From an uncultured Clostridium sp. (GTDB lineage: Bacteria; Bacillota; Clostridia; Lachnospirales; Lachnospiraceae), in assembly GCA_945915475.1 (NCBI GenBank), contig CAMEFI010000002.1:62001-126000 (forward strand): a stretch of 64,000 nt of DNA, in the 5' to 3' direction. Under the pieces are notes generated by a model. That model saw only the letters and a program-made list of their open reading frames with translations, had not been told where the DNA came from and searched no databases. Position numbers and translations under genes: made by a program. How positions within the stretch are numbered: the first letter of the stretch is position 1; each line of letters starts with the position of its first letter. Below, one piece after another: positions 9,402-63,866 of this stretch.

Positions 9402-10634
9402 ATGGTAAATATACTTATTGTAGATGATGAACAAAGTAAGAGACAGGAAATATATAGGGTATTAACACCTTATATATCAGATGAAGTATCAGTTGCCGCT
9501 GTGGGGAACATTAATGAGGCAAAGCGAAAGTTAAGAGAAAAGAATTATGATATTATGATTTTGGATATCCACCTTCCTCAAACGGAATGCAGTGCGACTC
9601 TTACTGATGGTGGAATGAAATTATTAAAAGAGATAAAAGAATCAAGAACCATGTCTTTCTTTTATCCAAGATATGTTATTTCTGTATCAGGGCATAAAGA
9701 TAGTACTGAAATTTTTTCAAGTTCAGAAGGAGCTATTCACACGGCAATAGATTATGATCCATCTAATACTGATTGGGAGGAAGACCTTAAAACAAGGATT
9801 GAGGCGGCTATTGCAATCGTTTCAAATACTACAATTCGTAGAGCTTACGATTATGATATTGCAGTTATATGTGCTTTAAAAGAAGAAATAGACGTTATTG
9901 CTGAAGGGTTGCAAGGTGTTAAAGAAATCAATGTTGAGTACGACGACGATATTTATAGTACAGGATATTTTGAAAAAGATGGACAAAAAATACGTGTAGT
10001 ATTTTCAAATGCAAGTCAAATGGGAATGGTTGCAGCAACCTCGTTAGCAACAAAAATGATTAATAATTTTATACCTAAATATATCGTAATGACAGGTATT
10101 ACAGGTGGAGCAAAACCAGATAAGATGAATTACGGTGACATAATCGTTGCATCAAGAGCATGGGATTATAGAGCAGGAAAAGATGTTAAAAAGGAAGAAG
10201 AACATTTACATATGAATTCCATTGACCAGAAATCAATTGATGCAACGCTATTAGGGTATTGCAGAAGGCTGCAAAGTGATGCTAGTGCTCTGGCTTCAAT
10301 TCAGGACAGCTTTACTCATGGGAAAAAACCAGAGACAAAATTGAAACTTTTAATTGGACCAATCGCATCAGGAGCGTCTGTAGTGACAGATCCAGAAATA
10401 GTAGAAGATATTATCAATAATCAAGACAGGGATGTTTTAGGGATAGAAATGGAAATCTATGGTATGTATTATGCTGCATATTGTGGTCTAAATCCAAAAC
10501 CTAAATTTATAGCGATTAAGTCTGTTAGTGACTTTGCCAATCAAGGAAAAAATGATGATTATCATGATTATGCATCTTTTACAAGTGCAAAAGCTTTTGA
10601 GATATTGGCAAAAGAATATTTTGTTTATGATTAA
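9402..10634 (+). CDS. dtcC: Receiver-nucleoside phosphorylase effector of Detocs-like system (DtcC)
   Basis: A 410-residue fusion. Residues 1-130 are a receiver domain (acidic pair D8-D9, phospho-acceptor D55 in IMILDIHLP). Residues about 148-405 are a PNP/MTA-SAH-nucleosidase fold: it opens DIAVICALKEEID, has GITGG near 230, the substrate-site motif GIEMEIYG (E349, E351) and the catalytic-type SVSDFA aspartate D377. In Detocs the phosphorylated receiver releases the PNP-type domain, which cleaves the glycosidic bond of ATP in infected cells and aborts phage growth. All key pocket residues I can place are present, so the effector should be active. It is nine bases after dtcB and ends the operon, followed by a strong hairpin. 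A general purine-salvage role is unlikely given the receiver fusion. Confidence 0.88.
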   Translation: MVNILIVDDEQSKRQEIYRVLTPYISDEVSVAAVGNINEAKRKLREKNYDIMILDIHLPQTECSATLTDGGMKLLKEIKESRTMSFFYPRYVISVSGHKDSTEIFSSSEGAIHTAIDYDPSNTDWEEDLKTRIEAAIAIVSNTTIRRAYDYDIAVICALKEEIDVIAEGLQGVKEINVEYDDDIYSTGYFEKDGQKIRVVFSNASQMGMVAATSLATKMINNFIPKYIVMTGITGGAKPDKMNYGDIIVASRAWDYRAGKDVKKEEEHLHMNSIDQKSIDATLLGYCRRLQSDASALASIQDSFTHGKKPETKLKLLIGPIASGASVVTDPEIVEDIINNQDRDVLGIEMEIYGMYYAAYCGLNPKPKFIAIKSVSDFANQGKNDDYHDYASFTSAKAFEILAKEYFVYD

Positions 10635-10642
10635 TGAATAAT

Positions 10643-10679
10643 GTAAAAGGAAGCAGTTATGAAAACTGTTTCCTTTTAC
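10643..10679. terminator. Strong bidirectional terminator hairpin
   Basis: GTAAAAGGAAGCAGTT and AACTGTTTCCTTTTAC form a near-perfect stem around a short loop. The A- and T-rich arms give U-rich ends on both strands. It separates the dtc operon (plus) from the convergent small acidic gene (minus). Confidence 0.85.
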
Positions 10680-10707
10680 ACTGTGATGTATTAAAGCGAG
10701 ACTGAGA

Positions 10708-10974
10708 TTACATATAATCTTCTTCTTTGTAGTAGACCGCATCCAGACGGTTCATTGTCTCACAATATTCCCGATATTCTTCGTCTTCCTGTTCGGATTT
10801 AAGTCTATGCTCCTCATAGGCTCTTAGACGCTCTTCTTCGTCCTCTGGCGACTCTTTCCACCAAAGAGGTTCGATTTCATCATTATCGTCATAATCTTCG
10901 TTGTCTAGGTAATCTTCCTCGAAAATAGAGTTCCGTCTATAAAAATCGGGGTCATCTTCAATAAAAATACTCAT
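10708..10974 (-). CDS. Small very acidic protein, function unknown
   Basis: An 88-residue protein beginning MSIFIEDDPDFYRR and dominated by Asp and Glu, with a helical ERLRAYEEHRL segment in the middle. The start at 10974 (reading leftward) is fixed by AAAGGAGG seven bases away, at 10983-10990; a longer frame starting at 10998 lacks a ribosome site. I do not recognise a family. Its extreme negative charge could suit a DNA mimic or a partner of a basic DNA-binding protein, but this is a guess from composition only. It faces the Detocs-like operon tail to tail and lies near a TnpC-like gene, so it may be cargo of the same mobile element. Confidence 0.6.
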   Translation of the reverse strand: MSIFIEDDPDFYRRNSIFEEDYLDNEDYDDNDEIEPLWWKESPEDEEERLRAYEEHRLKSEQEDEEYREYCETMNRLDAVYYKEEDYM

Positions 10975-11154
10975 AACTGCAACCTCCTTTAAAAGCAAAC
11001 ATTTGTTCTATAATAATAGTACCATAAATAGTGTGATTTTGCGACATTAGATATTAAATAAATAATACCTAAATATCTATTTCCATTTTCTTATACATCT
11101 ACCCTCAATCAAGATTTTCTAAGTGCTGAAAAGACTAGCACTAAGCAAATCTAT

Positions 11155-55545: not shown

Positions 55546-55803
55546 ATGTCAAAATGGGATAAACTATTAGCAAGAATATGTACTTTGTCAAAAGACCTCC
55601 GTTTTGACGAGTTAAGGAAGGTGCTGGAAAGTTATGGATATGAAATGAATGCGCCAAAGGGTGGAAGCAGTCATTACACATTCAGAAAGCCGGGTTGTCA
55701 GCCGATTACAATACCTAAGCACGAACCAATCAAAAAAGTATATGTCGAAATGGTAAAGCAGATTGTGGAAAGTGAGGCGAACAATAATGAAAACGCTGAA
55801 TGA
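55546..55803 (+). CDS. hicA: HicA-type mRNA interferase toxin
   Basis: An 85-residue HicA with the dsRBD-like fold: FDELRKVLESYGYEMNAPKGGSSHYTFRKPG, with the catalytic-type His in SSHYTF, and TIPKHEPIKKVYVEMVKQIVE at the end. These toxins cleave mRNA when the antitoxin is degraded. AGGAGG precedes the ATG. It overlaps hicB by 17 bases. Confidence 0.93.
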   Translation: MSKWDKLLARICTLSKDLRFDELRKVLESYGYEMNAPKGGSSHYTFRKPGCQPITIPKHEPIKKVYVEMVKQIVESEANNNENAE

Positions 55804-56149
55804 TTATATGGCAATGAATTATCGTATGGAAATTGTAGAGGATAAAGATGAGGGAGGATTTGTAGTTTCTTTTCCAGAACTTCCGGGATGTATTACTTGT
55901 GGTGAGAGTTTGGAATCCGCAATTTCAAATGCTGTGGATGCTAAAAAAGCATGGTTGGAGGCAGCAGTTGAGGAAGGAATCGAAGTACATGAGCCGGACA
56001 GCTTGGAAGAATACTCCGGTCAGTTTAAGTTAAGAATGCCTCGAAGTCTGCATCGTTCTCTTGCAGAGCATTCTAAGAGAGAAGGCATCAGCATGAACCA
56101 GTACTGTGTATATCTTCTTTCTAAAAATGATGCAGTTTATTCAAAATAG
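55787..56149 (+). CDS. hicB: HicB-type antitoxin
   Basis: A 120-residue antitoxin: the partial RNase H-like fold (YRMEIVEDKDEGGFVVSFPELPGCITCG, then SAISNAVDAKKAWLEAAVEEG) followed by a ribbon-helix-helix (LRMPRSLHRSLAEHSKREGISMNQY). It binds HicA and probably represses the operon through the direct repeats at the promoter. ATG 55787 is downstream of GAGG at 55774. Confidence 0.93.
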   Translation: MKTLNDYMAMNYRMEIVEDKDEGGFVVSFPELPGCITCGESLESAISNAVDAKKAWLEAAVEEGIEVHEPDSLEEYSGQFKLRMPRSLHRSLAEHSKREGISMNQYCVYLLSKNDAVYSK

Positions 56150-56214
56150 TGATTGAGTATAGGCTCAAATAAGTTGACATTTACGGACATCCCCCGTACA
56201 ATGTGATTTGTAAT

Positions 56215-56405
56215 AAATGAAATATGCTCTGTTTACGAAAGAGAAACAGATTAGAGGGAAACCCGGTGGGAATCCGGTGCAACCGCCATTACTGTATTAA
56301 GAGTCTGACGTCATTTTTTATCTCAGTGGGAGTACAATCTCCGACTGAGATAAAATAGGAAGAAAAAGATACGGAAGATTCTTTGAGCCAGATTACTCGC
56401 ATATT
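56215..56405 (+). promoter_or_regulatory. Cobalamin (B12) riboswitch aptamer
   Basis: The conserved core is present: AGAGGGAAACCCGGTGGGAA and TCCGGTGC (about 56253-56280), a divergent B12 box (AACCGCCATTACTGTA), GAGTCTGACGTC (56301-56312), a variable hairpin (TTTATCTCAGT/ACTGAGATAAA, about 56316-56355) and the closing TTTGAGCCAGATTACTCGC (about 56382-56400). Ligand binding would favour the downstream terminator. It lies upstream of the DUF4430/ECF genes, so they are likely induced by B12 shortage. Confidence 0.88.
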
Positions 56406-56478
56406 TCACGTGTTTCACGCTTTTGGGTAAGGAAAAGTATCATTCGTTTCATTTCGTTAGGTCGAAGTGTGTTTTTGT

Positions 56479-56517
56479 TGCGTTTTGCTTTTTCTAAGAG
56501 CAGGACGCATTTTTTTT
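56479..56517 (+). terminator. Riboswitch expression-platform terminator
   Basis: TGCGTTTTGCT and AGCAGGACGCA pair with a small internal mismatch around a ~10-base loop, followed by eight T. It ends just before the GGAGGTGAG ribosome site of the first gene. Confidence 0.85.
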
Positions 56518-56531
56518 GGAGGTGAGATGGA

Positions 56532-56822
56532 TTGAGAATGACAAAAGAGGATTGCATTTATGCATTAAAGGAAAAATATGTTGTGCTGAATCGTTATCCT
56601 TGCAAGTCTGATTTTACAGAGGACGAGGTGGCCATGATTAAATCCTATCTTGGACCATGGCCGAGAGCTTTAGAAGCGGCAGGGATTAAGGAACCAAAGG
56701 AAGAGACAAGGGCGCAGAGGAGAAAACAGAAACGGATTGAAACGAAACGGGCAAGAAATGCGGAACGAAAAAAATTAAAAAAACAAAATGTGGCGGAGAA
56801 GAAAGGAAAGGAAACAGAATGA
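56532..56822 (+). CDS. Small basic protein, first gene after the B12 riboswitch
   Basis: A 96-residue protein. Residues 1-50 form a helical domain (KEDCIYALKEKYVVLNRYPCKSDFTEDEVAMIKSYLG in broken segments, ending GPWPRALEAAGI), which resembles the homing-endonuclease-associated repeat type of DNA-binding helix unit. The remainder is a highly basic coiled tail of Arg/Lys/Glu. TTG 56532 has GGAGG nine bases upstream; the ATG at 56538 is two codons later. Its stop overlaps the next start as ATGA. It could be a regulator of the cluster or a leader gene for coupling; no function is known. Confidence 0.6.
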   Translation: MRMTKEDCIYALKEKYVVLNRYPCKSDFTEDEVAMIKSYLGPWPRALEAAGIKEPKEETRAQRRKQKRIETKRARNAERKKLKKQNVAEKKGKETE

Positions 56823-59173
56823 GACAGACAAAAACAAGAGTCATTTCCTGGTTGCTGGTGCTTACTATGGTATTCAGCCTAATTTCTCCAGGAGCACTGC
56901 AAAGAGTCAGTGCAGAAGAAAGTAAGCCATTTGATGGCTATGTGTATGTAACGGTGGAAAAGACAACTTTAGGACAAGGAGTAATCTTAGAGCCTGTTAA
57001 GGTTGGATTTACAAAGGATGAAACTTTGCTGGATATTGTAGTACATGCAATTGGAGAAGAGAATGTTGCTTATACATCTTTTACCGGTAATGGAGTTACA
57101 ACTAAATATTTAAGCAAAATAAAAGATGGTGGTTCTCCAGAGGGTTGGACAGTAAATAATATTCCGTCGAAGATTGCAAATGCAATAGAGGGTGATAGTA
57201 ATCTGCAATTGGAATCGAAAAGAAAAGAAGATTCTGCCTGGTTGAAAGAATATGATTATACATCTGCCGGCGGTTGGATGTTTGGTATTAATAATAAAGG
57301 ATTAAGTACCGGTGCAGGAAATTATACATACGATGCAGAAGGAACTTCAGCTGAAACTTATAAGGATGGAGATGTAGTTCGCTTACAGTATACACTTTAT
57401 GGATATGGGAGTGACTTGAATACGGCCGAACAGTCGAATTGGCAAACACCATTATTAGATTTTCCTAATAAAGATGAGTTGATTAAATGCCTGGCAGATT
57501 GGCAACAGGATAAGACAGAGAATACTTATCAAAATGCGTTGACGGTCTTAGAAGACTGGGATGCCACTCAGGATGAAGTTGATTCTGCAGTGAAGGATCT
57601 TTGTGCGAATAGATTATCTGATTCATATCAGAACAAGAAAAAAACAGCGATTCAGTATTCATTTGACAGTGTAAAAGATCCCGGGTATCAAAGTGAATGG
57701 ACTGTTTTCGCAGTTGCACGCAGCGGTACAGAGAATGCAGTATGGTATCATACATATAAAAATGCCATTGATGCCACAGTGAAACAAAAACAATCGAACA
57801 TTATTGGTACACAGGCAACAGATAATGCAAGAGTGATTATCGGATTGACTGCTGCCGGAATTGATGTAACAGATGTGGCGGGATATAATCTGCTAGAGCC
57901 ATTAGCGGATTATACATATGCTGTAAAGCAAGGACTGAATGGTGCCGTCTATACCCTGATTGCATTTGATTGTGGAGATTATGATATTCCGAATGTAGAA
58001 GAAGGAACGGAACAGACAACAGAAGCAAAATTAGTAGATTTGATTTTATCCAAAAAAATTGAAAATGGTGGATGGGCATATTTTGGTAGTACACCAGATG
58101 TGGATATGACTTCAATGGTGATTCAGGCGTTGGCACCATATAAAGATACAAATCCAGAGGTTGAGACCGCCATCGAGGAAGCACTTAATGTGCTATCTGA
58201 TATGCAGCAATCAGATGGCGGATATAAGAGTTGGGGAACCGCTAGTAGTGAGAGCTGTTCACAGGTATTATGTGCCCTGTCGTCAGTAGGAATTGATACA
58301 GAGACAGACGATCGTTTTGTGAAAGAGGGTAATTCTGTGTTAGACGCCTTGCTTTCATTTTATGATGAAACGACGGGTGGTTTTAAACATGTAGCAGATG
58401 GTAACGTAAATGGAATGGCAACCTGTCAGGGTACATATGCACTTGTGGCGTATGACAGAATGCAGAAGAAACAGACTGGATTGTACGACATGTCAGATGT
58501 TGAAAAGGGAACATTTTTTAAATGTGCAGGTGCGAAAGAAGTTATCAAGAATAAAAAAGCAGCAACCTGTACAGAGGATGGGTATACAGGAGATAAATGC
58601 TGTGATGTATGTGGTCTGCTTCTGGAAAAGGGCGAAACCATTGAAAAGAAAGGACATACAGTAGTAGTCGATCCGGCGGTGGAGCCAACGGAGGACAAAG
58701 AGGGTAAGACAGAGGGAAGTCATTGCTCTGTATGTAATGCGGTGATTAAGAAACAGAATGTGCTTCCGAAGATAGAGAAAAAACCGGATGGAGCTACCCA
58801 GACAACTACCCAGTCAACTACGGAGATAACCTCTGCTTCCACAACAGAAATAACAGATACCCAGACTCCCGTCGCATTGAAAAAGCCGACGGTCAGCAAG
58901 CTTAAGAGCATGAAAAAGAATCAGATTAAGCTCACGCTGAAACCACAGAATGAGATTTCCGGTTATCAGATTCAGGTAAGTACCTCTTCGAAGTTTAAGA
59001 AAGCAAAGACATATAATGGAAAGAAGAGTATTCTTAACAAGACCATAAAAGGCTTGCAGTCCGGCAAGAAATATTATGTGCGTATCCGTACGTATAAGAA
59101 GTTAAAAGAAAATGATAAGACAAAGACAATTTACAGTAAATGGTCGAAAATAAAGAAAGTAAAAGTAAAATAG
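56819..59173 (+). CDS. Secreted transcobalamin/intrinsic-factor-like B12-binding candidate
   Basis: A 784-residue exported protein. Signal peptide 1-32 (ending VSA). Residues about 38-200 are a DUF4430 beta domain (KPFDGYVYVTVEKTTLGQG, SAGGWMFGINNKG, YKDGDVVRLQYT). Residues about 265-555 are an alpha/alpha-toroid with repeats such as ENGGWAYFGSTPDVDMTSMVIQAL and QQSDGGYKSWGTASSESCSQVLCAL. Two Cys-pair units follow (CTEDGYTGDKCCDVCG and EGKTEGSHCSVCN), then a Thr linker and a C-terminal Fn3-like domain (about 690-784). Animal intrinsic factor and transcobalamin join the same alpha-toroid and DUF4430-type domain, but in the opposite order. With the B12 riboswitch and ECF importer beside it, it is probably a surface B12 binder; that function is inferred. 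Confidence 0.78.
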   Translation: MRQTKTRVISWLLVLTMVFSLISPGALQRVSAEESKPFDGYVYVTVEKTTLGQGVILEPVKVGFTKDETLLDIVVHAIGEENVAYTSFTGNGVTTKYLSKIKDGGSPEGWTVNNIPSKIANAIEGDSNLQLESKRKEDSAWLKEYDYTSAGGWMFGINNKGLSTGAGNYTYDAEGTSAETYKDGDVVRLQYTLYGYGSDLNTAEQSNWQTPLLDFPNKDELIKCLADWQQDKTENTYQNALTVLEDWDATQDEVDSAVKDLCANRLSDSYQNKKKTAIQYSFDSVKDPGYQSEWTVFAVARSGTENAVWYHTYKNAIDATVKQKQSNIIGTQATDNARVIIGLTAAGIDVTDVAGYNLLEPLADYTYAVKQGLNGAVYTLIAFDCGDYDIPNVEEGTEQTTEAKLVDLILSKKIENGGWAYFGSTPDVDMTSMVIQALAPYKDTNPEVETAIEEALNVLSDMQQSDGGYKSWGTASSESCSQVLCALSSVGIDTETDDRFVKEGNSVLDALLSFYDETTGGFKHVADGNVNGMATCQGTYALVAYDRMQKKQTGLYDMSDVEKGTFFKCAGAKEVIKNKKAATCTEDGYTGDKCCDVCGLLLEKGETIEKKGHTVVVDPAVEPTEDKEGKTEGSHCSVCNAVIKKQNVLPKIEKKPDGATQTTTQSTTEITSASTTEITDTQTPVALKKPTVSKLKSMKKNQIKLTLKPQNEISGYQIQVSTSSKFKKAKTYNGKKSILNKTIKGLQSGKKYYVRIRTYKKLKENDKTKTIYSKWSKIKKVKVK

Positions 59174-59256
59174 GTATACGCATCACCATATAGTGATATG
59201 CAGTTACTTATGGGGATAGATTGGTGATTGCAAAACTCCTGTTTGATCTATAAATG

Positions 59257-59394
59257 TTGTGCAGATTTAACAATATCCTCACAGGCACGCTTGCGCTGCT
59301 CTCGCCTCGCAGCGGTACTAAACTCGTGTTTCACACCCGTTAAGTGCCGGCGGTCTCAAAGCACCTGCTTAGGATACTTGTTAAATCTACACAA
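59257..59394. repeat. MITE-like or structured element bounded by inverted repeats
   Basis: A 138-base element with terminal inverted repeats: TTGTGCAGATTTAACAA at the left and TTGTTAAATCTACACAA at the right (one mismatch), extended by ATCCT/AGGAT. The interior is G+C-rich and folds further (CGCTG...CAGCG at about 59293-59315). It has no coding frame and sits in the 59174-59462 gap between two co-directional genes. It may be a non-autonomous insertion or a structured RNA. Confidence 0.7.
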
Positions 59395-59462
59395 CTTAAT
59401 ATACATTTTTAAGAGTTTCGCAATTGCCTATATGGGGATAGAACAGGAAAGGAGGAACCGGT

Positions 59463-60470
59463 ATGAAATGGAAGAAAATTGCAGGAGGTGTTTTTGTCAT
59501 TGTGTTGCTGGCGGTTGCCTTCTGGTATGGCGGGAACACACCGGATAACCGGGGTTTTGCTGTATCGGAAACGGCAGCGGTACAACAGAATAGGGATCGT
59601 TCAAAAGTGGAATCTTCTGACCGCAAGGATACAGATACAACTGTGATGCGGCAGGAAACAAAGAATACAAAGGAATCTTCCGGCAATTTTTTTGGGCAAT
59701 TGTTCATGAAGATAACACATATTGGTTCCTCCGGTTCTTCCCCAAAAGCACAGGGAAGTAAGAAAGCACAGCGCAATGCACAAAAGGCAGTTAAGACGGC
59801 GGAAAAGCGGCAGAAGCAGACAGAAGCATCAAAGAAAAGGACGACAGGTAAGGCGTCTAAAAATCAGGAAACTGCGACAACAAAAGATACGGAATCCGGT
59901 AAAGACAATGTGACAGAACAAAAGGATTCCCAGGATGATCAAAAGAATGACAGGAAAACCGATTCGGAAGCAACCCGGCAAAATGGTGATGAGATAACAA
60001 CAGAAAACACGCAGCAGAATATAGAAAGTACGGAGAGTACAACGGAGACATCTGCCAATGTGGTAAGCTGTACCATTAGTATTACCTGTAGTGCCGTTCT
60101 TGATCATATGGATCTGTTGAAGGATAATAAGAAAAAAATAATACCGAAGGATGGTATTATACTGGAAACGACTACAGTGACAGTAAAAAAAGGAAGCAAT
60201 GTATTTGATGTATTACAGAAAGTAACAAAGGAAAATAAAATTCAGCTGGAATATAATTATACACCGGCTTATAAGAATTATTACATAGAGGGAATCGGTA
60301 ATCTTTATGAGTTTGATGCAGGGGAATTGTCGGGCTGGATGTATTGTGTAAATGATACATTTCCGGGATCCGGCTGTTCCTCTTATACCGTAAAAGATGG
60401 TGATGAAATCAAATGGCTGTACACCTGCAATCTTGGCAAAGATGTAGGAGGATATTTTGAAGAGGAGTAG
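59463..60470 (+). CDS. DUF4430 membrane-anchored protein, probable B12-handling partner
   Basis: A 335-residue protein. N-terminal membrane anchor (about 4-22, KKIAGGVFVIVLLAVAFWYGG), then a long Lys/Gln/Thr-rich, low-complexity linker (about 30-190), then a DUF4430 domain (about 200-335): ETTTVTVKKGSNVFDVLQKV, YIEGIGNLYEFDAGELSGWMYCVND, SSYTVKDGDEIKWLYTCNLG. This beta domain is the one that caps cobalamin in transcobalamins. The linker could carry it through the cell wall. GGAGG precedes the ATG, and the next gene (EcfT) starts three bases after the stop. It probably hands the vitamin to the ECF importer. Confidence 0.82.
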   Translation: MKWKKIAGGVFVIVLLAVAFWYGGNTPDNRGFAVSETAAVQQNRDRSKVESSDRKDTDTTVMRQETKNTKESSGNFFGQLFMKITHIGSSGSSPKAQGSKKAQRNAQKAVKTAEKRQKQTEASKKRTTGKASKNQETATTKDTESGKDNVTEQKDSQDDQKNDRKTDSEATRQNGDEITTENTQQNIESTESTTETSANVVSCTISITCSAVLDHMDLLKDNKKKIIPKDGIILETTTVTVKKGSNVFDVLQKVTKENKIQLEYNYTPAYKNYYIEGIGNLYEFDAGELSGWMYCVNDTFPGSGCSSYTVKDGDEIKWLYTCNLGKDVGGYFEEE

Positions 60471-60473
60471 CGT

Positions 60474-61328
60474 ATGGATTCGTTGCATCCGGTTGTGAAT
60501 TTCATATATTTTGCAGTTGTATTAGGGTGCAGCATGGTTCTGATGCATCCGGTCTGCCTGGCAATCAGCTTTGCGGCGGCATTTGTCTACATAGTTCGGA
60601 TGTTTGGATATGTGAATGCAAGAAAGGGATTGCTTGGCATGGCGGGGGTCATGTTAGTGGCGGCGGTGATGAATCCGGCATTTAGTCATCAGGGGGTTAC
60701 CACTCTTTGTTATCTGCCGGATGGCAATGCCCTGACACTGGAATCCATATATTATGGAATGGCGGCGGCATTGATGCTTGGAGCAACCCTCATGTGGTTT
60801 CGGTGTGTCAGTGAGATATTAACTGTGGATAAGATTGTATACCTGTTTGGGAAACCGTTTCCCATATTATCCATGATCCTTTCCATGGTATTTGGATTTA
60901 TCCCTAAGATGCAACGGAAACTGCGGGAAATCCGGTACGCACAGAATATTCAGGAGGGGAAAAAGATGTCAGTACGCCAGGGCATCCGTAGCATTTCCCT
61001 ACTGATTACCTGGGCATTGCAGGATGCAGTGGATATGGCAGAGAGCATGAAATGTCGTGGTTACGGTCTTGATGGAAGAACGGCATATACAACGTTTCGG
61101 TTTACGAAATGGGACAAAACCATATTACTGATGATCCTTGCAGGGCTTTGTTATCTTGTGGGGGGTGTATTTTTCGGCGGTCTTTCCTGGGAATATTACC
61201 CTGCGACGGAAGGAACCGGTATTCATTTGTATTCAGTAAGCATTTATGTAGTATACGCTGGGATATGTTTCCTTCCGGTTGGTGTGGAATTGTTAGAAAC
61301 CTATCAACATCATAAGAGTATGAAATAA
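60474..61328 (+). CDS. ecfT: ECF transporter transmembrane subunit EcfT
   Basis: A 284-residue integral membrane scaffold of an energy-coupling-factor importer. Hydrophobic segments lie near 10-45, 55-75, 95-115, 215-235 and 250-275. The cytoplasmic coupling helices contain PKMQRKLREIRYAQ and the conserved Arg-Gly signature MKCRGYGLDGRT, which contacts the ATPases. It links the S component to EcfA/A'. Gene order T-AA'-S, directly after the DUF4430 gene, supports cobalamin or a related corrinoid as substrate. Confidence 0.9.
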   Translation: MDSLHPVVNFIYFAVVLGCSMVLMHPVCLAISFAAAFVYIVRMFGYVNARKGLLGMAGVMLVAAVMNPAFSHQGVTTLCYLPDGNALTLESIYYGMAAALMLGATLMWFRCVSEILTVDKIVYLFGKPFPILSMILSMVFGFIPKMQRKLREIRYAQNIQEGKKMSVRQGIRSISLLITWALQDAVDMAESMKCRGYGLDGRTAYTTFRFTKWDKTILLMILAGLCYLVGGVFFGGLSWEYYPATEGTGIHLYSVSIYVVYAGICFLPVGVELLETYQHHKSMK

Positions 61329-61341
61329 AAGAGGAGTTTGT

Positions 61342-63357
61342 ATGGAGCAGATTCGAATAGAACATCTTACATTTTCATATGGAAACGATAGTGGTTTTTC
61401 ACTAAATGATATATCAACCACAATACAAAAAGGACAGTTTGTGCTGGTCATTGGGGAATCGGGCTGTGGTAAGACCACGCTACTCCGACATTTGAAGGTG
61501 GACTATATGCCGGCGGGAATACGTAGTGAGGATGCAAGAATCCTCATAGATGGAACTTCCGTAGAGAAAATGTCTCCTCGGGACAAGGCGGGATTGGTTG
61601 GGTTTGTCAGACAGAATCCCGAGTCTGCACAGGTGATGGACAAGGTCTGGCACGAGTTGGCATTTGGATTGGAAAGTCTTGGATATTCCCAGGAACAGAT
61701 GCAGAGAAAAGTTGCCGAAATGGTAGCATTTTTTGGGCTGGAAGGCATCTATAATGAGAAGCTTTGCAATCTTTCCGGTGGGCAGAAACAGTTGGTGAAT
61801 CTTGCGGCAGTTATGGTAATGGAACCGGAGGTACTGGTGTTAGATGAACCCACCAGCCAGTTAGATCCCGTGGCGGCGACAGGATTTTTTCATATGGTAG
61901 AACGGATTCACCGGGATCTGGGAACAACCATCGTCATGACAGAACACCGGTTAGAGGAAGTGTATGGTCTGTGTGACAGAGTACTGCTAATGGACAGTGG
62001 ACGGATTGTGAAAGAAGGAACACCCCAGCGTATAGCGGCATATCTGTGGGGACAAAAATATCCAATGTTTGGGGCATTGCCTTCGGCGACCAAACTTTAT
62101 CTGCAGTTAAATGACAGATTCTGTCAGGAACAGAGGGATACTGTAAGGGAACGGGAAATACCCCTTACTGTAGGGGCAGGACGGAACTGGTTAGAGGAAG
62201 TCGTGAAGAAGAATGGCAGTGGGGTTAAAACAGATTCTGAGGAGAAATGCAGCGGTGCAAAGAACATAACCGGCAAACAGAAATCAGCATTTCAGGCAGA
62301 TGAGCTATGGTTCCGATACCAGGAAAAAGGGATGGATATATTAAAGGCATGTAGCCTGTCGCCGAAACAGGGAACCATTACAGCCATTCTGGGAGGAAAT
62401 GGAGCCGGCAAATCAACCCTTTTGCATGTGCTGGCGGGGCACTGCCAGCCCCTTCGGGGTAAGGTGAAGAAACTATCCGGAACCATTGGTATGATGCCAC
62501 AGAATCCTCAGGCCATGTTTACCCGGGATACCGTATGGGAGGAGCTATGTGCAAGTGCAGGGGTGAATAGGGAAGAAGAGGAGGCAGAGGAGCTAAGGGT
62601 ATCTATCCGGGAGCAGGCTGTTTTTTCCGGATTACAGGATGCATGGAACCAGCATCCCTTTGATCTGTCCGGAGGGCAGATGCAGAAGTTAGCTTTGGCA
62701 AAACTGATCCTTTCAGATTATGATATTTTATTGCTGGATGAACCGGGTAAAGGAATGGATTACCGGGCAAAAGGGGAGATGGGACAACTTCTCCAACAAC
62801 TATCGGCAAGGGGTAAGACCATTGTGCTGGTGAGCCATGATGTGGAATTTTGTGCAAGATATGCGGACGTATGCGGATTATTTTTTGATGGACATATTGT
62901 GTCGCTTTGTGATGCTAAGACTTTCTTCCTGCAAAATGTATTCTATACAACGTCCGTTGTTCGTATGTGCCGGAGTCTGATAGAAAATGTGGTGACGGTA
63001 GAGGATGTATTAGATTGTTTTGGCATGAAACGGGAAGCGAAAACCTGTGAAGGGCAGGATAAGCATGGAGATCTGCCGGAATGTTCCGGGGTGATGCCGG
63101 ACATGTCCTTGCCGGATGGAGAGAGTGCCCAGGAGACGATAAAGGGGAAAACAGTGGGGAACAGGCAATGGGAAATAGGAAAAATAAGCTGGATCAATCG
63201 GGTGGTTTTCTTTGTAATCATGCCTCTTACCATTTTTTTTGGCCATACGATTCTCCGACAGAGAAAGTATTATTTTATTTCTTTGCTTTTGGTAATTGAG
63301 GCAATGACCGCATTTTTGCTGACCTTTGAAAAGGCAGGCCGAAACTTAAAAAAATGA
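61342..63357 (+). CDS. Fused ECF ATPase A-A' carrying the first membrane helices of the S component
   Basis: A 671-residue chain. ATPase 1: Walker A GESGCGKTTLL (about 36-46), signature LSGGQKQLV, Walker B VLVLDEPTSQLDP. ATPase 2: Walker A GGNGAGKSTLL (about 352-362), signature LSGGQMQKLALAK, Walker B ILLLDEPGKGMD. After a ~60-residue variable linker the chain continues with two membrane helices (VVFFVIMPLTIFFGHTI and YYFISLLLVIEAMTAFLLTF). These are normally the start of an ECF S component whose remainder is encoded next in the -1 frame. The stop TGA overlaps the next ATG and lies at A AAA AAA (63348-63354), a classic -1 slippery heptamer. EcfA and A' power uptake by ATP hydrolysis. Confidence 0.88.
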   Translation: MEQIRIEHLTFSYGNDSGFSLNDISTTIQKGQFVLVIGESGCGKTTLLRHLKVDYMPAGIRSEDARILIDGTSVEKMSPRDKAGLVGFVRQNPESAQVMDKVWHELAFGLESLGYSQEQMQRKVAEMVAFFGLEGIYNEKLCNLSGGQKQLVNLAAVMVMEPEVLVLDEPTSQLDPVAATGFFHMVERIHRDLGTTIVMTEHRLEEVYGLCDRVLLMDSGRIVKEGTPQRIAAYLWGQKYPMFGALPSATKLYLQLNDRFCQEQRDTVREREIPLTVGAGRNWLEEVVKKNGSGVKTDSEEKCSGAKNITGKQKSAFQADELWFRYQEKGMDILKACSLSPKQGTITAILGGNGAGKSTLLHVLAGHCQPLRGKVKKLSGTIGMMPQNPQAMFTRDTVWEELCASAGVNREEEEAEELRVSIREQAVFSGLQDAWNQHPFDLSGGQMQKLALAKLILSDYDILLLDEPGKGMDYRAKGEMGQLLQQLSARGKTIVLVSHDVEFCARYADVCGLFFDGHIVSLCDAKTFFLQNVFYTTSVVRMCRSLIENVVTVEDVLDCFGMKREAKTCEGQDKHGDLPECSGVMPDMSLPDGESAQETIKGKTVGNRQWEIGKISWINRVVFFVIMPLTIFFGHTILRQRKYYFISLLLVIEAMTAFLLTFEKAGRNLKK

Positions 63358-63866
63358 TGGTCATTGCTGTGATGACTGCCATTACAGTGGCGGGCCGGGC
63401 TGCATTTTATATGGTGCCAAATGTGAAACCCATGGCGGCACTTACCATATTATCCGGAATTGGTCTGGGAGGGGAAGCCGGGTTCCTGATCGGTGCGTTA
63501 TCCATGCTTGTTTCCAACATTTTTTTTGGTCAGGGCCCCTGGACACCATGGCAGATGATGGCCATGGGAATGTTGGGAATGCTTAGTGGACTTATTTTCA
63601 AAAGAGATACCCCCTGTGATAAGAAGAAGCTTTTCGGAATCTGTCTGTTTGGTTTTGTGGCGGTTCTTGTTGTATATGGGGGCATTATGAACCCGGCATC
63701 TGTGCTGATGTATCAGGAATCTGTCAACTGGGAAATGATTCTGTCAGCCTATGGGCTGGGATTACCCTTTGATCTGATTCACGCAGTAGGAACAGTTGTA
63801 TTTTTGCTAGTGGGAGCCCGGCCAATTCTTAAGAAACTCAAGCGGGTAACAGAGGTGATCCGGTAG
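63354..63866 (+). CDS. ECF transporter substrate-binding S component, main part
   Basis: A 170-residue membrane protein: MMVIAVMTAITVAGRAAFYMVPNVKPMAALTILSGIGLGGEAGFLIGALSMLVSNIFFGQGPWTPWQM in broken segments. The AVAGRAAF-type and FGQGPWTPWQM motifs are those of S components placed beside B12-controlled ECF genes. Compared with full-length S components it lacks the first two helices, which are encoded at the end of the preceding gene. It could be made by re-initiation at the ATGA overlap or as a full fusion by -1 frameshifting. S components bind the vitamin within the membrane. Confidence 0.8.
   Translation: MMVIAVMTAITVAGRAAFYMVPNVKPMAALTILSGIGLGGEAGFLIGALSMLVSNIFFGQGPWTPWQMMAMGMLGMLSGLIFKRDTPCDKKKLFGICLFGFVAVLVVYGGIMNPASVLMYQESVNWEMILSAYGLGLPFDLIHAVGTVVFLLVGARPILKKLKRVTEVIR

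Follow-up and report, generated by a model that had tools for sequence, protein, structure and literature searches.

The window analyzed here, a stretch of 64,000 nucleotides from an uncultured Clostridium sp. of the family Lachnospiraceae (GenBank assembly GCA_945915475.1, contig CAMEFI010000002.1, positions 62,001 to 126,000 of the forward strand), contains a group of genes that is likely to encode a capture-and-import system for cobamides (B12). The group comprises a cobalamin riboswitch, a gene for a secreted alpha/alpha-toroid protein (ORF1), a gene for a membrane-anchored DUF4430 protein (ORF2), and the genes of an energy-coupling factor (ECF) importer with a CbrT-type S component. All of these features are on the plus strand, and the region 56174–63866 reads as one transcription unit. 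The initial annotation had proposed extracellular B12 capture in association with an ECF importer, and this proposal is sustained by the riboswitch association, the CbrT-type S component, the tight co-occurrence of the genes, and the presence of the gene set in both Clostridia and lactobacilli. What would be new is the pairing of an importer whose type is already known with an extracellular module that resembles intrinsic factor and had gone unrecognised. No description of a toroid-DUF4430-ECF system was found in the consulted portions of the open-access literature, most subscription papers lying outside the scope of that search.

Cobalamin Riboswitch and ECF Importer Genes

The cobalamin riboswitch aptamer (RF00174; 56207–56418) matches the full model (positions 1–189) with 43.7 bits, compared with a gathering score of 31.5 bits (E 1.1e-7 in the window), and therefore belongs to the family. 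It is the only RF00174 match (E <= 0.001) in the 3.09-Mb source genome. An intrinsic terminator composed of a 14-pair stem and T8 (56479–56509) follows it and provides the expression platform expected of a cobalamin riboswitch; two terminator-like sites were found against 0.3 expected from shuffles, and the fold has a z of −2.2, with equally low values in 7 of 200 shuffles. Together, the aptamer and the terminator bear out the earlier claim of a cobalamin riboswitch 5′ of a secreted protein gene.

Regarding the importer, EcfT, the transmembrane coupling protein (60474–61328), is assigned on the basis of its conserved position and a CbiQ match below the cut-off (E 1.5e-4). The fused EcfA-EcfA′ ATPases (61342–63357) match PF00005 in two stretches (E 2e-52), with ABC_tran well above its cut-off and TIGR04521/TIGR04520 just below theirs (E ~1e-87). 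EcfS (63354–63866; PF07155, E 5e-13) is a CbrT-type S component; when its 34-row family profile was compared with solved structures, CbrT (6fnp) was the best match (E 1.5e-17), followed by RibU (E 9.4e-5). The S component closest to CbrT is thus accompanied by EcfT and two EcfA ATPase domains, as in ECF importers, and the arrangement previously noted 3′ of ORF1, a DUF4430 anchor protein followed by an ECF importer, is found again in ORF2 (DUF4430, E 5.8e-19) and the EcfT-, EcfAA′- and EcfS-like ORFs. A second EcfT-like gene is located 3′ of EcfS at L036–L040, L042 and other loci; the copy at L036 is CbiQ-like below the cut-off.

The source genome encodes two proteins with B12-binding domains, one of them MetH-like by eye, and it contains no match to CbiD, the sole corrin-ring gene tested. 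Because a MetH-like protein is present and CbiD is not matched, the bacterium is probably dependent on B12 and incapable of building the corrin ring. These observations bear on the idea that the importer carries another corrinoid-related compound, such as cobinamide, a lower-ligand precursor or cobalt, with surface proteins matched to it. CbrT is described as carrying cobinamide as well (PMC5997447), and cobalamin riboswitches are described as controlling cobalt uptake genes too (PMC2667541). This alternative is nevertheless improbable, given that CbrT is the closest solved S component and that the lack of a CbiD match makes cobalt for corrin making an unlikely purpose.

A promoter-like site, TTGACA-17-TACAAT (56174–56202), agrees with the consensus at 11 of 12 bases; two such sites were found in the leader stretch, where 1.4 are expected by chance. 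Just 5′ of this site ends an ORF that is HicB-like by eye (55763–56149). A small basic ORF of 96 amino acids with an HNH_repeat domain (56532–56822; PF18780, E 9e-8) sits between the riboswitch and ORF1, and its relatives occur in 19 of the 77 named loci described below, mostly adjoining the toroid gene.

Co-occurrence and Distribution of the Gene Set

The first 560 residues of ORF1 were used as a query against 397 genomes of the family, and the toroid protein was detected in 85 of them, the source genome included. A CbrT-type EcfS (E <= 1e-10) is present in 99 of the 397 genomes, namely in 79 of the 85 toroid genomes and in 20 of the 312 without a toroid (Fisher p 2e-56, a value that treats related genomes as independent). 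The two genes lie within 8 kb of each other in at least 64 of 79 genomes, a lower bound that rests on 91 protein match rows. For the riboswitch survey, the source genome and the five weakest of the other 84 toroid genomes were left out, and 116 protein match rows were used for the count of orientations, further segments of the same frames being omitted. RF00174 occurs within 15 kb upstream and on the same strand as the toroid match in 41 of these 79 genomes. The three arrangements that served as controls, downstream on the same strand and either placement on the opposite strand, gave 4, 4 and 0. PF14478 was present in all 79 surveyed genomes, among the matches listed.

A scan of named genomes, of which the best 80 of 134 matches were kept, yielded 77 loci; several of the incomplete loci are short contigs. 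The profiles used for the gene maps were begun from the window proteins and searched against a set containing the window, so that the window's own scores with them are circular. Toroid, DUF4430, EcfT, EcfAA′ and EcfS occur together in 52 of the 77 loci (48 without and 4 with a propeller). A DUF4430 ORF is positioned immediately 5′ of ecfT in 51 loci, and 47 of these 51 ORFs possess an N-terminal hydrophobic segment. The loci include isolates of Ruminococcus bromii as well as metagenome-assembled genomes (MAGs) or isolates labelled Emergencia, Christensenella, Pelotomaculum and Desulfotomaculum. Among the 28 loci scanned with Rfam, picked mostly for full length, RF00174 lies upstream on the toroid strand in 20, and one Emergencia locus contains five RF00174 elements in 20 kb. 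In the phylum, the toroid profile matched 55 of 299 genomes (E <= 1e-12), not all of which necessarily contain the same system; a search of genome contigs with a single protein as the query gave no match.

The Secreted Toroid Protein

As had been annotated initially, ORF1 (56819–59173) encodes a secreted surface protein of 784 amino acids, with a signal sequence recognized by eye at residues 1–32. Its alpha/alpha toroid (residues 293–560; 57695–58498) shares 39–53% identity with 23 relatives over the domain; the toroid-profile score of 371 bits is circular, since the profile was begun from this very toroid. A PDB search with a profile of 24 toroids retrieved squalene-hopene cyclase folds (E 4e-16), and the domain therefore belongs to the alpha/alpha toroid superfamily. 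Residues D429, T431, Q537 and R547 are invariant in 69 of 69 alignment rows, and E478 and Q482 likewise count as conserved.

The top Pfam, NCBIfam and PDB matches are all squalene cyclase and prenyltransferase toroids, which raises the question of whether the toroid is an enzyme, similar to a terpene cyclase or prenyltransferase, whose position in the operon is unrelated to capture. The matches of the window protein remain below the family cut-offs (Pfam Prenyltrans, E 4e-4; NCBIfam squalene cyclase, E 5e-8), the protein carries a signal sequence, and the toroid sits with DUF4430 and ECF genes in the 52 loci mentioned above. A terpene cyclase function is thus unlikely, and an enzyme placed here by unrelated circumstances is very hard to credit.

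The N-terminal DUF4430-like domain (56945–57427) is weak (Pfam E 0.13); a relatives' profile gave 61 bits, a partly circular score in that the profile, begun from ORF2, may have absorbed this domain during building. The earlier description of ORF1 as a DUF4430-toroid protein is confirmed, the DUF4430 being weak. Two further features of that description are present: the Cys pairs, located in residues 569–639 (58523–58735) at positions 594/595/598 and 636/639, and a C-terminal fn3-like domain (58919–59110; PF00041, E 1.3e-4, below the cut-off), which probably serves wall attachment. At L003, a secreted downstream protein that is CAP-like by eye (10027–11028) has an fn3-like end resembling that of ORF1, also by eye, suggesting a shared wall-attachment domain.

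The Probable DUF4430 Partner of the Toroid

ORF2 (59463–60470; DUF4430, E 5.8e-19) is separated from ORF1 by 289 bases and consists of a single N-terminal hydrophobic segment predicted from hydropathy, a long polar linker, and a DUF4430 domain of the transporter-side type (60192–60425; Pfam match and tree). Between the two genes lies an element of ~150 bp resembling a miniature inverted-repeat transposable element (59250–59402), with 18-nt inverted ends; counting this one, the genome contains at least 35 copies with at least 90% identity over nearly the full length.

Relatives were examined in 20 stretches from the family; the choice was deliberate, 10 having frames that looked compact and 10 representing other forms. 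A compact form, a single frame of 491–707 amino acids, was found in 12 of the 20 (the 10 compact-looking ones and L128 and L129). In all 12 the chain runs from a toroid through at least two hydrophobic segments, forming a membrane hairpin, to DUF4430, which is the order of intrinsic factor. Eleven of the 12 genes have EcfT, EcfAA′ and EcfS next to them on the same strand; the contig bearing the remaining one is 5.6 kb long. One branch of a tree built from 74 DUF4430 domains separates the compact and ORF2 types from the surface DUF4430s, the N-terminal ones among them; the split, based on few columns, has moderate support (85/96, and 82% of bootstrap trees). The N-terminal domain of ORF1 is across the split from ORF2, on a long branch.

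In light of the tree grouping and the compact relatives, the partner of the toroid is probably the separate, anchored ORF2 protein and not the N-terminal domain of ORF1. The DUF4430 of ORF2 can be read as the original partner, and that of ORF1 as an added copy on the capture side. As the ORF2 domain groups with the DUF4430 behind the compact toroids, the intrinsic-factor order may be the older arrangement. The reversed domain order pointed out initially is real, in that ORF1 has the order opposite to intrinsic factor, but its two domains are probably not the working pair. The idea that ORF1 by itself works as an intrinsic factor with its domains reversed was rejected accordingly, the tree and the compact relatives favouring the DUF4430 of ORF2.

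Propeller Variant and Lactobacillus Plasmids

All 20 EcfS genomes without a toroid match were inspected. In eight, a beta-propeller lies beside the DUF4430-ECF genes (L134, L135, L136, L139, L140, L144, L146 and L152); the other 12 comprise two with a faint toroid, three at a contig end (one of them only on its downstream side), five with neither, and two with a weak S match only. Three of the propellers were scanned with Pfam and match PQQ_2/Beta-prop models; a profile built from one of these matches the rest. At L044, L052, L054 and L102, a single protein combines DUF4430, a propeller and a toroid. A PDB search with one such propeller returned BamB-like and other proteins, BtuG not being among the matches at E up to 10.

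The propellers bear on a second alternative, namely a cobamide system in which DUF4430 alone touches the vitamin and the toroid serves for docking or as a scaffold, with no closed pocket of the intrinsic-factor kind. The eight propeller genomes imply that the toroid can be replaced, and the toroid is closest to other toroid families, both in keeping with such a role. Strong conservation of the toroid, including the four invariant residues, and its presence in one chain with DUF4430 in the compact relatives argue against it, so that this alternative appears rather unlikely, albeit the most serious of the competing explanations.

The same parts have been found on plasmids of lactobacilli. The plasmid of Latilactobacillus curvatus encodes an LPXTG-anchored toroid, DUF4430, EcfT, ATPase and S; that of Lactiplantibacillus plantarum encodes EcfT, ATPase, S, a toroid (named “fucose-binding lectin II”) and DUF4430; and that of Levilactobacillus brevis has a 72.4-bit riboswitch, the only RF00174 match in the three stretches, followed by genes for a DUF4430 protein, a toroid and another DUF4430; its ECF genes lie close by on the opposite strand. 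The L. plantarum plasmid is also described as carrying NrdJ, CobA and CbrVUT (PMC6722938). Public “fucose-binding lectin II” proteins (L159, 7440–8492; L160, 7686–8732) match the toroid profile with ~53 bits.

The lectin name is one of the points in favour of a third alternative, in which the surface proteins act as adhesins or piracy receptors and bind B12-carrier proteins or glycans of host or microbial origin instead of free cobamide. The wall domains (fn3-like, MucBP and LPXTG) and open frames reaching 3648 amino acids would also suit adhesins. The lectin annotation of L159 and L160 looks wrong, as the L159 protein matches no Pfam family at E <= 0.1 and matches the toroid profile at 53 bits. 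Short forms of 368–410 amino acids contain little beyond the toroid, and relatives occur in MAGs labelled Desulfotomaculum and Pelotomaculum, which are usually free-living genera. An adhesin or receptor function is therefore improbable.

Proposed Mechanism and Significance

In the preferred reading, a cobamide capture-and-import system, low adenosylcobalamin would allow transcription to pass the riboswitch terminator. ORF1 would be secreted and held at the wall, where its toroid, with or without its own DUF4430, would catch cobamides, and ORF2, tethered next to the importer by a membrane stalk, would present the second DUF4430. The toroid and DUF4430 would then enclose the cobamide between them, like the alpha and beta domains of intrinsic factor, after which it would be handed to the CbrT-type S component, with EcfT and EcfAA′ driving import. 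The sequence itself shows the riboswitch with its terminator, the gene set and its conservation, the relationship of EcfS to CbrT and, by hydropathy, the anchor segments. Binding of B12, a common pocket for it, its transfer to EcfS, transcription as one unit and a place in the wall are inferred, and closure in the manner of intrinsic factor is roughly as likely as not.

Several observations weigh against this picture. Under stricter filters, 38 of the 79 surveyed genomes have no riboswitch near the toroid; 8 of the 28 scanned named loci have no RF00174 above the gathering score; and RF00174 is wholly absent in 10 of the 12 compact-form genomes, the remaining two scoring 38.2 and 24.4 bits, the latter below the cut-off. 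Six toroid genomes have no EcfS, and the ~150-bp repeat between ORF1 and ORF2 could break cotranscription. As for the likeness to animal carriers, PF01122 (the animal alpha domain) has no match in the source genome, the toroid profiles find terpene cyclases and not intrinsic factor in the PDB, and a narrow profile of the ORF2-type DUF4430 retrieves no transcobalamin there.

ECF importers are not known to rely on an extracellular binding protein, the S component in the membrane being the part that captures the substrate. The demonstrated surface strategy, BtuG, is described as confined to Bacteroidetes (PMC6143338), and no settled account of extracellular B12 capture by Gram-positive gut bacteria was found in the consulted open-access literature. 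If the reading is true, an ECF importer in Clostridia and lactobacilli alike is supplied by a clamp resembling intrinsic factor, gut competition for B12 involves a second class of competitors, and the origin of the animal B12 carriers becomes a testable question. Many Gram-positive bacteria may take hold of extracellular B12 in this way.

Comparison with Known Systems

Animal cobalamin carriers contain an alpha/alpha toroid. The likeness of the present system to intrinsic factor, transcobalamin and haptocorrin consists of this toroid plus a DUF4430-type beta domain, which is also present in ORF2 (E 5.8e-19); DUF4430 is described as occurring in TCN proteins (PMC4350170). Alpha-then-beta order in one chain is kept by the 12 compact relatives, and not by the window proteins, ORF1 having the opposite order and ORF2 being separate. 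Against 177,635 PDB sequences, the 74-row DUF4430 profile placed transcobalamin-1 first (E 0.0019), with transcobalamin-2 at E 0.007, and in a 30-row profile the two were again first in the PDB (E 0.16 and 0.042, respectively). PF01122 gave seven weak matches (E <= 0.01) in the 397 family genomes, four of which, including the best three, lie on toroid matches, and three matches in the 299 phylum genomes, one on a toroid match; this overlap counts as weak, because it is expected of any toroid in toroid-poor genomes. Homology with the animal carriers is thus weakly supported by sequence. Common ancestry of these carriers and the bacterial toroid-DUF4430 proteins is possible, with the balance tilting against it. 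A fuller proposition, likewise tentative and open to doubt, is that a bacterial toroid-DUF4430 cobamide clamp, held in the membrane and serving an ECF importer, gave rise to the animal carriers or has a common origin with them. In Bacillota, this clamp and exchangeable PQQ-type propellers would then make up a modular kit for surface capture, breaking the no-binding-protein rule for ECF importers. The animal proteins differ from the window system, which is bacterial, wall- or membrane-held, split over two genes and endowed with a toroid that PF01122 does not match.

BtuG of Bacteroidetes is a B12-binding surface lipoprotein with a seven-bladed propeller that serves BtuB (PMC6143338). Surface capture of B12 for an importer would be common to both systems, and propellers occur in relatives of the window system; the window protein differs in that the Pfam matches of ORF1 at E <= 1 include no propeller family, and the relatives' propellers match PQQ/BamB-type models.

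CbrUVT B12 transporters have been predicted in gut bacteria (PMC8123684, PMC6593275, PMC9963975), and the DUF4430 protein LGG_02295 (LRHMDP2_2713), next to rtpR, is designated “Additional lipoprotein component of putative cobalamin ECF transporter” (PMC9963975). This annotation ties a DUF4430 protein to a cobalamin ECF transporter and anticipates the role proposed for ORF2; a toroid partner, a resemblance to intrinsic factor or a propeller variant does not appear in the consulted portions of these accounts. The closest characterized counterpart of the importer is ECF-CbrT of Lactobacillus delbrueckii, in which CbrT was shown to carry cobalamin and eight S components are said to share one ECF module (PMC5997447). 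Both have a CbrT-type S component with EcfT and EcfA/A′, whereas the window operon has its own fused EcfAA′ and, in addition, extracellular DUF4430 and toroid proteins.

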